Shown here: positions 29,184 to 49,045 of the stretch, piece after piece
How the letters are laid out: the number at the start of each line of letters is the position of its first letter
Numbering within the stretch: position 1 is the first letter of the stretch
Assembly (NCBI GenBank): GCA_016283155.1
Contig: JAEEMI010000010.1
Span: 1-64,000 of the forward strand
DNA: 64,000 bases
Direction: 5' to 3'
From: Clostridia bacterium
GTDB lineage: Bacteria; Bacillota; Clostridia; Christensenellales; UBA1242
The notes under the pieces: generated by a model
Databases searched by the model: none
The model's input: the letters and a program-made list of their open reading frames with translations, nothing else
Told to the model about the DNA's origin: nothing
Position numbers and translations under genes: made by a program

Positions 29184-30233
29184 ATGAAAGAACACAGACA
29201 AGAAATTATTTACATTTTGACGATCATTGGCACAAGTTGTGGCGTAATTGGTGGATGGTTTATTTGTGCGACCAAAGGGTGGCAACAAAACGATATGTTC
29301 TTATTTTGGAGTGGAGTTGTTACCGTTGTCGGTATGGTGCTTGGACTAGTTGGTTGGGGTGTAAAATTAATTATCGCGGCAAATAAATATTTCTCGGTAC
29401 TTAAACTCACGAAAAACAACAAAATAATGGTGGAAAACTTACTGGAAAAAGTTAACGAAAAAGAATGGAAAACGGATGATTTCGCTCAAAACATTAATCA
29501 TCAATTTTATAATTTTGTCTTAAAATATGACACTACTAACGATAACATTGTTCGTAAAATTATTCACACCACAAGGGTTGCCGATATGTGCTTTTCAATT
29601 GCGTGCAAATTAAATTTAAATGAAAACGATCGACACTTAGCCTACCTTGGCGGAATTTTGCACGACATTGGCCGTTTTGAACAATGGAAACGTTACCAAA
29701 CATATAATGACAAAATTTCGGTTGACCACGGCGATTTGTCATACGAACTATGTGATAAATTTGATTTATCAATGTTAACCGCCAAAGACCGCGAAACCAT
29801 TAAATTGGCAATCAAATACCATACAAAACCTTACCCAGGAAATGATGAACGCGTTAAATTATTTAATCAAATCATTATGAATGCCGATCCCTATGCCAAT
29901 GTCTTATCTGCCGCTAACGGCGAACATCGTATGATGGGCATCACTGCTGATGGTTATACCCCAGCCATTCTCGATGATTTTATGCAACTCAAACTTTTAC
30001 AATGTCATTCAGCTAAAACTAAACTTGACCGCGTTCTAATGTTAACCGCCTGCCTTTATTATGTCCGTTATGATTTTTTGCGTGAACAAATTTTAAAATT
30101 TAATTTCTTTACCGCCGTTAGTCAAAGTTTCTTACCATATTTAAATCAAGCAGATCAACAAACCTACTTAAAAGCAGTAAAAACAATGCAATCCCGTTAC
30201 CTTAATCCCGCCTACAGCAAGAACCTAAATTAA
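29184..30233 (+). CDS. HD-domain phosphohydrolase with two N-terminal TM segments
   Basis: ILTIIGTSCGVIGGWF… TMs; HTTRVADMCFSIA…GGILHDIGRFEQ. Confidence 0.82.
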   Translation: MKEHRQEIIYILTIIGTSCGVIGGWFICATKGWQQNDMFLFWSGVVTVVGMVLGLVGWGVKLIIAANKYFSVLKLTKNNKIMVENLLEKVNEKEWKTDDFAQNINHQFYNFVLKYDTTNDNIVRKIIHTTRVADMCFSIACKLNLNENDRHLAYLGGILHDIGRFEQWKRYQTYNDKISVDHGDLSYELCDKFDLSMLTAKDRETIKLAIKYHTKPYPGNDERVKLFNQIIMNADPYANVLSAANGEHRMMGITADGYTPAILDDFMQLKLLQCHSAKTKLDRVLMLTACLYYVRYDFLREQILKFNFFTAVSQSFLPYLNQADQQTYLKAVKTMQSRYLNPAYSKNLN

Positions 30234-45891: not shown

Positions 45892-45978
45892 TACTTATAA
45901 TACTATAAATTAAACCACTTGTCATTTTCAATGAACAGTTATTTACAAAAAATCAAAAACTGTGCTAATCTATAAAAT

Positions 45979-47340
45979 ATGGACGTCAAGGAAATTTGGG
46001 AAAAAGCGAAACCGATTATTCAAAACAATGTGAGCAGCATTTCTTTTGACCTTTATATTCAACCATTAATGCCAGAAGCATTTGAGGACGGCACGTTTAT
46101 TTTGTCAGCGATGTCCACACGTGATGCGAATTATGCCCGCAATGAACGTCACTTTCCACACATCGACGATGCAATTAAAAAAGTTGCACCCTTAGTTGAA
46201 AAAGTGGAAATTATCGATGCTGTCGAAAAAGAACGCCGTGATGCCCGTAATAATCCAACACCTGAAACTCCACTACCTGAACCAATTATTTACAATAATA
46301 ACATTAACCCACAACAAACTTTTGCCAATTTTATCGTCGGTAAATCTAACCAAGAAGTTGCCGCAATGGCAGAATTTGTTGCCAAACACCCTGGTAAAAA
46401 AATTAACCCCTTATTTATTTATGGTCGTTCAGGTTTAGGCAAAACTCACTTATTAAATGCAATTGCTAACCAACTTTTAGAAGACAAACCGTCAACTAAA
46501 TTAGTTTTAACTTCAATTGAAAAATTTACCGACGATTACGTCAGTGTCATTAAACAAAAAGGTGACTTTGGTGCGTTCCGTGAAAAGTACCGCAATGTTG
46601 ATGTGTTGTTAATTGATGATGTGCAAGAATTAGCCAGCAAACAAGCGACACAAGAAGAGTTCTTCCACACCTTTAATGATTTATTTGAACATCAACGCCA
46701 AATTGTTTTAACCAGCGACCGTCATCCTAACGAAATTGCTACTTTATCAGAACGTCTGCAATCGCGTTTGAAAAGTGGTATTTTCCAAGATATCCGCAAC
46801 CCTGATGTGGAAATGCGTACCGCAATTTTACAAAAGAAAGCAGCTTTAGAAGATAAATATTTACCCAACGAAGTTGCTTCCTATATTGCCGAATATTCGA
46901 ATAAAATCAACGAAAACATTCGTGATATGGAAGGTCACTTAGTCAAAATCATTGTGTACGCCGAATTAAACGGTCATACAATTCCGACAATTGAAGATTG
47001 TAACACTGCACTATCAGATAATTCTGGCGACGAAGAAACGGCACGCGTTGGTGATACCGCCGCACGTATCATTGCGACTACGGCTAATTATTTTGATGTT
47101 ACCCCCGATGAAATTACGGGTAAACGTCGTACCGAAAAATTAGCTAACGCCCGTTCGGTCGCCGCTTATTTATTAACCAAGAAATTAGAAGATGTACCCT
47201 TAACCGAAATTGGTGAAATTGTCGGCAGTCGTACCCACGCGTGGGTCATTTTCTCCCGTGATAAAATTGAAAAACAAATGACCACCGACCCTAAAATTAA
47301 AAATGCCGTTGACGATATTTTAAAACAATTAGACAAATAA
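45979..47340 (+). CDS. dnaA: Chromosomal replication initiator DnaA with divergent domain IV
   Basis: FANFIVGKSNQEVAAMAEFVA, GRSGLGKTHLLNAIANQL, VLLIDDVQELA; signature region IGEIVGSRTHAWVIFSRDKI. Confidence 0.96.
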   Translation: MDVKEIWEKAKPIIQNNVSSISFDLYIQPLMPEAFEDGTFILSAMSTRDANYARNERHFPHIDDAIKKVAPLVEKVEIIDAVEKERRDARNNPTPETPLPEPIIYNNNINPQQTFANFIVGKSNQEVAAMAEFVAKHPGKKINPLFIYGRSGLGKTHLLNAIANQLLEDKPSTKLVLTSIEKFTDDYVSVIKQKGDFGAFREKYRNVDVLLIDDVQELASKQATQEEFFHTFNDLFEHQRQIVLTSDRHPNEIATLSERLQSRLKSGIFQDIRNPDVEMRTAILQKKAALEDKYLPNEVASYIAEYSNKINENIRDMEGHLVKIIVYAELNGHTIPTIEDCNTALSDNSGDEETARVGDTAARIIATTANYFDVTPDEITGKRRTEKLANARSVAAYLLTKKLEDVPLTEIGEIVGSRTHAWVIFSRDKIEKQMTTDPKIKNAVDDILKQLDK

Positions 47341-47394: not shown

Positions 47395-47414
47395 CGAAAA
47401 ATGTCGAAAAATGT
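47395..47414 (+). repeat. Perfect tandem 10-mer CGAAAAATGT x2 downstream of dnaA
   Basis: attgCGAAAAATGTCGAAAAATGTCtaacg. Confidence 0.8.
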
Positions 47415-47462
47415 CTAACGATTTGCATTTTAAGTTTGCAATAATTTTATTATAATAAAGGT

Positions 47463-47906
47463 ATGAAACATCAATTTACAGAGGAAGCCAACGATTGTTT
47501 AGCGCCAGATTTCGTCATTGATTTTTTGGCAACAATGATGCACACCGAAATTAGCAATCCGATACAACGTGATGGCGATGTTTTGTGGGTAACTTTATCC
47601 GACCAAACTACAGCGCGAATTACTGCCCCCAAAGTCGACCGCTCAACGATACCGCCGGAACAATCCGAAGCCACGGTACACAACATTGCAACTTTACGTT
47701 ATGTAATGCAACACGATTATGGTTATGGCGACGAAAATGTCAACCACGAAATTAACCAATTAGAATTACACAATTTGGACGAATGCCGTACTTATTTAGA
47801 AGACGCTATTGGCAGTCAGTTAAATGCATACTTTACCAACTACTTAATTGAATTTATGAACGGCGAAAAATATCTTTTATCAATTGAATTAAAACAAAAG
47901 CAATAG
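47463..47906 (+). CDS. Hypothetical protein (147 aa) between dnaA and dnaN
   Basis: ORF; TATAAT 47451-47456, 6 nt before ATG. Confidence 0.65.
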   Translation: MKHQFTEEANDCLAPDFVIDFLATMMHTEISNPIQRDGDVLWVTLSDQTTARITAPKVDRSTIPPEQSEATVHNIATLRYVMQHDYGYGDENVNHEINQLELHNLDECRTYLEDAIGSQLNAYFTNYLIEFMNGEKYLLSIELKQKQ

Positions 47907-47938
47907 ACACTTTGGCGAAATTTTGTTATCATATAAGT

Positions 47939-49045
47939 ATGAAATTTATATGTGATGGAGAAGATTTAAAGACCGCGGTGGCAATTGTAGCACACGGTAC
48001 TAACAGTAAAACGGTAAACCCGATTTTGGAAGGTATTAAAATTGAAGCCAAAGGCAATGAAGTAACTTTCTTTGCAACCGATTTGGAATTATACATCCGC
48101 AAAACTATTCACGCTGATGTTAAACAAGAAGGCGCAGTTTTATTACCAGGTAAATTATTTGGTGAATACATCGGTAAAATTGGTCAAGGTCCAATCACCT
48201 TTACCAGTTCGGATACTGCGGCAGTAATTGAACACGGCGAAGGCAACGACGGTAATTTCTCTTGTATGCCTATTAATGAATATCCTGATTTAATCGATTT
48301 AAACGCTAAACCATTATTCTTTTTAAAAGCGGCGGATTTGCGCGAAGTAATTAGCAAAACCACCCCATTTACCGCACAAGATAATTCTCGTCCGGTTTTA
48401 CGTGGTGCTTTGTTTGATGTTGATGCAACTAATAATACTTTAACCGCAGTTGCTTTGGATGGTTTCCGTTTAGCCCGCATTATTAAACCGTTAGTTCGTC
48501 CTACTGGTTCAGCTAAATTAATCATTCCAAGTCGTGCTTTGGAAGAAATGCGCCGAATGTTAACTGATGATAAAGAAGAAATCGGTTTAATTGTTGAAAA
48601 GAAATTTGTCCAAATTGCGATTGGCAGTACAGTATTTGCTTCACGTTTGATTGATGGCGATTTTGTTAATTACCGCCAAATTATTCCAACTGAATTTAAT
48701 TCTAGTGTGGTTGTCGAAACTGCTCCATTATTAGCGGCGGTTGGTCGTGCTGGTTTGTTATCTGGTACTAACAAAATTAATTTGTTAACTTTAACCACTG
48801 CTGATAAGAGTTTGGAATTATTTGCTAATAACGAAATGGGTCAAATTAATGAACGTGTGCCCGCTAACTTAGACGGTACCAGCATTAAAATTGCGTTTAA
48901 CTCTAAATATATGTTTGATGCGTTAAATACCATTACGGACGAATTTGTAAAACTTTCGTTCACTACTCCATTAGCACCTTGTGTTGTTACCAGTGCCAAA
49001 CGTGGTGATTATTTATTCTTAGTCTTACCTGTGAGGTTGGGTTAA
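47939..49045 (+). CDS. dnaN: DNA polymerase III beta clamp
   Basis: MKFICDGEDLKTAV…NPILEGIKIEA; DNSRPVLRGALFDV; ALDGFRLAR. Confidence 0.95.
   Translation: MKFICDGEDLKTAVAIVAHGTNSKTVNPILEGIKIEAKGNEVTFFATDLELYIRKTIHADVKQEGAVLLPGKLFGEYIGKIGQGPITFTSSDTAAVIEHGEGNDGNFSCMPINEYPDLIDLNAKPLFFLKAADLREVISKTTPFTAQDNSRPVLRGALFDVDATNNTLTAVALDGFRLARIIKPLVRPTGSAKLIIPSRALEEMRRMLTDDKEEIGLIVEKKFVQIAIGSTVFASRLIDGDFVNYRQIIPTEFNSSVVVETAPLLAAVGRAGLLSGTNKINLLTLTTADKSLELFANNEMGQINERVPANLDGTSIKIAFNSKYMFDALNTITDEFVKLSFTTPLAPCVVTSAKRGDYLFLVLPVRLG

Follow-up and report, generated by a model that had tools for sequence, protein, structure and literature searches.

The dnaA–dnaN locus and its product

We analyzed a 64,000-nt stretch of a Clostridia bacterium genome (the window) in which dnaA is surrounded by rnpA-rpmH on the minus strand, a NUDIX gene, a gene for a 147-aa protein, dnaN and a gene for a 234-aa unknown protein. 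From reading their sequences, we take further neighbors to be jag and yidC (on the minus strand with rnpA-rpmH), serS, glyS and gmk. The features of the locus are:

45979..47340 (+): dnaA, 453 aa, the only initiator of chromosome replication that this genome was found to carry
46423..46449 (+): Walker A motif GRSGLGKTH, G-LGKTH intact, with an R-S variant fixed in the genus
47065..47268 (+): domain IV helix-turn-helix (PF08299) from a profile search; predicted AlphaFold2 helices at residues 408-414 and 420-436
47146..47157 (+): NARS loop (E. coli RPRQ, 405-408); P406A is common elsewhere and R407 is kept
47230..47253 (+): altered recognition-helix signature RTHAWVIF, compared to E. coli R432-H439 RDHTTVLH (D433T, T435A, T436W, H439F)
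47395..47424 (+): direct repeat CGAAAAATGTCGAAAAATGTCTAACGATTT, preceding the promoter of the 147-aa gene and dnaN; a candidate but doubtful new box
47463..47906 (+): gene for the 147-aa protein of no known family, between dnaA and dnaN
47843 (no strand): minimum of the window's cumulative GC skew; probable origin region
47912..49045 (+): dnaN, from profile searches

Gene orientation switches at the GC-skew minimum (47,843). Because the two coincide at dnaA–dnaN, the replication origin probably lies in or beside this locus. The 147-aa protein matches no Pfam or NCBIfam family and is kept in most of the genus, with 59-65% identity where found. Its gene was not found between dnaA and dnaN in two congeners, G008 and G010, and the intergenic space beside dnaA in G010 is as short as about 85 and 18 bp.

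Translation of positions 45979-47337 (+) yields a 453-aa protein that contains GKRRTEKLANARSVAAYLL and, further along, PLTEIGEIVGSRTHAWVIFSRDKIEKQ. It matches the DnaA profile TIGR00362 over its full length with 406 bits (cut-off 343.9), PF00308 with 197 bits and, in domain IV, PF08299 with 59.9 bits (cut-off 31.5). The Walker A and B regions, described as intact by the initial annotation, do carry GKT and DD, together with the box VII arginine R263 and the sensor 2 arginine R315; these motifs and arginines are invariant. The Walker A motif reads GRSGLGKT in 11/11 genus genomes versus the usual GGVGLGKT; all members share the R at its second position, which is absent from the residues listed for other DnaAs. 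An AlphaFold2 model built from a 52-row alignment (pLDDT 87) has intact helix-turn-helix helices, and a fold search of the PDB with this model returned the DnaA structures 8btg, 1l8q and 2hcb as its best matches.

Whole-genome searches found a single dnaA in the window's genome (G000, 88% complete) and in each of ten congeners. A second canonical dnaA, the finding that the initial annotation had named as counting against its proposal, was not found in any of the 11 genus genomes. The remaining weak DnaA matches are to AAA+ proteins with a length of only about 240-270 aa; in G000, this match and its adjoining open reading frame read as a putative DnaD-like plus DnaI/DnaC-like pair. Judged by its full-length profile score, AAA+ motifs, folded C-terminal helix-turn-helix and single-copy locus beside dnaN at the GC-skew minimum, the window protein is a bona fide full-length DnaA. 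The motifs and the predicted structure show that the genus DnaA retains its AAA+ engine and helix-turn-helix fold.

Changes in the recognition helix

We mapped E. coli numbering onto an alignment of the 11 genus DnaAs and 169 others from named genomes, the order and other genera of the family, of which 168 are readable at the site. The residues listed as base-specific contacts of DnaA are R399, P423, D433, H434, T435 and H439 (PMC7561715). In the window, the signature spans 47209-47268 and its recognition helix reads IGEIVGSRTHAWVIFSRDKI. The translation agrees exactly with the reported replacement of D-H-T-T by T-H-A-W and of the following H by F, and the altered signature is shared genus-wide. 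Because ten other genus genomes carry the change, a sequencing error is dismissed and, from these alignments, the change is genuine.

Position 433 is T in ten of the 11 genus DnaAs and S in the remaining one, the basal G008. Outside the genus it is D in 165/168, H in two and N in one, and never T or S; the nearest sister genera also keep D433. Position 435 is A in 11/11 genus DnaAs and in 7/168 others. Position 436 varies within the genus (S in five, G in three, W in two, T in one, with W436 recurring in G003), whereas outside it is T in 163/168 and S in 5/168, with G or W in 0/168. Position 439 is Y in six and F in five genus members; elsewhere, Y occurs in 34/168 and F in none listed. The window's RTHAW thus falls outside the signature [RK]DH[TSA][TS] of the canonical-box subgroup. 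R399, R407, H434 and K443 are kept in all 11 genus DnaAs.

These counts separate the unusual from the ordinary. The signature was initially described as nearly invariant, which holds for D433 but not for each position, because P423 is variable across the whole alignment and both P406A (38/168) and H439Y are common in otherwise canonical DnaAs. The NARS loop is present as described, but its P406A is ordinary and R407 is kept. By sequence comparison, the truly unusual parts are D433 to T/S and T436 to G/W, because neither occurs in the 168 other proteins whereas A406 and Y439 are common; NARS and the missing H439 largely reflect ordinary variation. The proposed alteration of base contacts likewise stands in part: D433, T435 and H439 are changed, and fixed as changed genus-wide, while the base-contacting R399 and H434, the backbone contact K443, and R407 are retained. 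Altered or relaxed box recognition in the genus is likely.

Distribution and order of the changes

The genus is monophyletic (support 100/100), its stem measures 0.54 changes per site, and its sister genera g5 and g8 keep RDHTT. RSHATVIY is the form in G008, the deepest branch; G010 and several others have RTHASVIY; and RTHAGVIF and RTHAWVIF come next in a stepwise path. From the tree and the sequences, we infer that D433S, T435A and H439Y came first, followed by D433T and then by T436S/G/W with H439F. In a sample of 399 genomes across the phylum, GR[STCW]HAxVI was sought with a degenerate DNA pattern that would itself miss the window's GSRTHAW. It returned seven chance matches and none in a DnaA; no DnaA with GR[ST]HAxVI was found, and within this sample a convergent signature elsewhere was rejected.

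Selection on the recognition helix

Within the genus, pN/pS is 0.048 for the AAA+ domain, 0.20 for domain IV and 0.19 for the recognition helix, so that the helix evolves about 4 times faster than the protein's own AAA+ domain; these ratios are only rough because synonymous sites are near saturation. In seven comparison genera, the recognition-helix pN/pS is 0.00-0.16 (below 0.10 in six of the seven), and in none of the seven does it exceed about 1.1 times the AAA+ value of the same set. In the genus, dN/dS is still about 0.09. The recognition helix changes faster in the genus, yet is still under purifying selection.

The faster evolution of the helix bears on the possibility that box recognition in this small genome has not been switched but has decayed toward weakly specific binding, with the origin picked by a few remaining contacts, AT-richness or helper proteins. 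This is somewhat unlikely, although because of that faster evolution such a loss fits the data about as well as an altered specificity. The presence of S, G, W or T at position 436 within one genus is consistent with it, as are the narrow intergenic spaces of G010 and the fact that no conserved box set was found. Conversely, A435 and H434 are invariant, T433 is present in 10/11 members and dN/dS is about 0.09, and free drift of the helix is dismissed because of these same observations.

Canonical boxes beside dnaA

We counted the canonical box TTATCCACA and its degenerate form TTWTNCACA within 500 bp either side of dnaA. In the 11 genus genomes, there are no exact boxes (0.10 expected) and one degenerate box (1.55 expected). 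In the 21 genomes of other family genera, exact boxes occur 10 times versus 0.20 expected, a 50-fold enrichment, and degenerate boxes 24 times versus 4.4 expected. The order has 15 exact boxes (0.25 expected) and the named genomes have 208 (0.55 expected). The dnaA promoter of the sister G079 lies between two boxes; in the genus, no box accompanies this promoter. No TTWTNCACA occurs between positions 29,568 and 54,999 of the window, which places the nearest one 7.7 kb from dnaA. The low count of TTWTNCACA across the window (7 versus about 17-19) was discarded as a signal; it is unspecific, as a reversed control word is depleted too.

A cluster of TTATCCACA or TTWTNCACA near dnaA is absent from the genus, and is also missing in many canonical relatives; many genera of the family with a canonical signature have no canonical box next to dnaA, and many of the further genomes sampled across the family's genera have none within about 600 bp. 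Because canonical genera often lack boxes there and the genus represents one evolutionary event, the absence of boxes near dnaA is weak evidence. The changes could be neutral or compensated, with DnaA still binding TTATCCACA-like boxes adequately and the working boxes located away from dnaA. The retained R399, H434, R407 and K443 are compatible with this explanation, as are the 16 exact copies of TTATCCACA in the G000 genome. However, these copies are scattered and form no cluster, D433 is otherwise nearly invariant, and the GC-skew minimum lies at a dnaA–dnaN locus without boxes. We regard neutral change as improbable.

Candidate replacement boxes

No convincing replacement box was found for the genus. 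Because no new box could be shown, the altered origin specificity predicted by the initial annotation stays a prediction, to which the changed contacts and the missing canonical boxes near dnaA are favorable.

Among 7-mers in the dnaA flanks of the genus, TTCGACA/TGTCGAA is the most enriched (10 versus 0.89 expected). The tandem TGTCGAA array has the reverse complement TTTTCGACA, one mismatch from TTWTNCACA. The 7-mer forms an element with a 10-bp period, TGTCGAAWWWTGTNNAACGATTT, that lies directly upstream of the −35 of the operon of the 147-aa gene and dnaN. The same element recurs upstream of the −35 in an operon of a 136-aa unknown protein and a UvrD/PcrA helicase (G000:C28:100975-100997, L190), and is a conserved promoter element whose full copies are confined to two main loci in each genome.

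One version of the new-box explanation would make the tandem TGTCGAA array upstream of the dnaN and pcrA operons the new DnaA box. The 7-mer's enrichment, the array's 10-bp period and two main loci, and its proximity to the GC-skew minimum are in its favor. Against it, the position of the array, directly before −35 elements, is like that of an ordinary activator site, and genera with canonical DnaA have similar arrays (G030, with four copies, and G090); in several such genera, TGTCGAA also precedes pcrA. Because canonical genera carry these relatives and the dnaA flanks of G008 and G010 have no copy, the array is more likely another regulator's site than a DnaA box; we rejected it as the new box and keep it as a low-probability rival.

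Two other candidates were rejected. TTATTTACA, immediately before dnaA (near 45940-45950), coincides in part with a −35 element. Next to this −35 comes an extended −10 that canonical sisters also conserve (L162), and TTATTTACA is better explained as a promoter. The box ACCTACCAC, used instead of TTATCCACA by the DnaA of Thermotoga maritima (PMC10316083, PMC4285127), has no exact match in the window. Allowing one mismatch gives no match from 42.7 to 50.1 kb either, so that this box is not near the origin.

Precedents and proposed mechanism

The closest precedent for the genus DnaA is that of T. maritima, in which positions 433 and 435 are S and P (RSHPVVVD, from a PDB 2z4r alignment). In both, D433 is replaced by a small hydroxyl residue and T435 is replaced, while H434 and the AAA+ domain are kept; unlike T. 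maritima, the genus reads RTHA(W/G/S)VI(F/Y). The T. maritima origin is mapped and has five boxes, whereas the genus has at most candidate boxes. According to a 2015 review, the boxes of all studied origins but one lie within two mismatches of TTATCCACA; the review also lists the T. maritima box as divergent (PMC4285127). The genus DnaA is therefore a known kind of protein in altered form, and no new kind of system is shown.

The genus DnaA shares its domains, ATPase motifs, rnpA-rpmH-dnaA-dnaN gene order and single copy at the skew minimum with canonical Bacillota DnaAs (B. subtilis 8btg, C. difficile; TIGR00362). It differs from them in D433, T435, T436 and H439 and in the absence of canonical boxes beside the gene. 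Within the family, it resembles the KDHATVIY genera g23, g27, g34 and g42 (and g40, with KNHATVIY or KDHATVIY) in T435A, H439Y and a reduced genome, and in most of these, too, the roughly 600 bp around dnaA hold no canonical boxes. Unlike the genus, these DnaAs keep D433 (N in one) and T436.

The reading that we favor, by a small measure, is that an orthologous, sole working DnaA of a reduced-genome genus has lost base-reading residues and reads one or more diverged boxes near dnaA–dnaN. On the genus stem, the recognition helix would have lost the base-reading D433 and T435. DnaA would still dock via R399 in the minor groove, H434 and backbone contacts, would no longer demand the canonical TTATCCACA, and may read a diverged box or box set at an origin close to dnaA–dnaN. 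A stronger version is possible, though we hold it only tentatively: the whole genus may have switched its initiator to a new box code (for example, TTTTCGACA-like) through stepwise changes at D433, T435, T436 and H439, with a matching change of the origin. The occurrence of T435A with D433 kept in another clade of the family counts against the favored reading. Under the favored reading of diverged boxes, as under relaxed binding, the genus probably initiates replication of its chromosome through a DNA code that is changed or loosened.

DnaA-box recognition belongs to the most conserved bacterial protein-DNA codes, and a new box code, if true, would be a rare example from nature in which initiator and origin jointly rewrote their recognition code. 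The stepwise change, the living intermediate RSHATVIY and the canonical sisters form a natural series for either the joint change of initiator and origin or the relaxation of specificity. The genus also calls for caution with automatic origin finders that rely on TTWTNCACA.

Other modified DnaA signatures

A second clade of the family carries the modified signatures KDHATVIY, KNHATVIY (D433N in L263) and KDHSTVIY (L249, L252, L257, L263, L264, L265, L273). Most of its members have no canonical boxes beside dnaA, and it may be a parallel case. In the unrelated lineages L031, L053, L054 and L096, the recognition residues read KHYSTIIY, RDRTSVMH, KDRTTVVH (H434R) and KHHTTILY. In another genome, a second, canonical dnaA (G095:C23:491-1783, L266) lies amid many TTATCCACA boxes on a 2.2-kb contig, which is probably contamination from another Bacillota.
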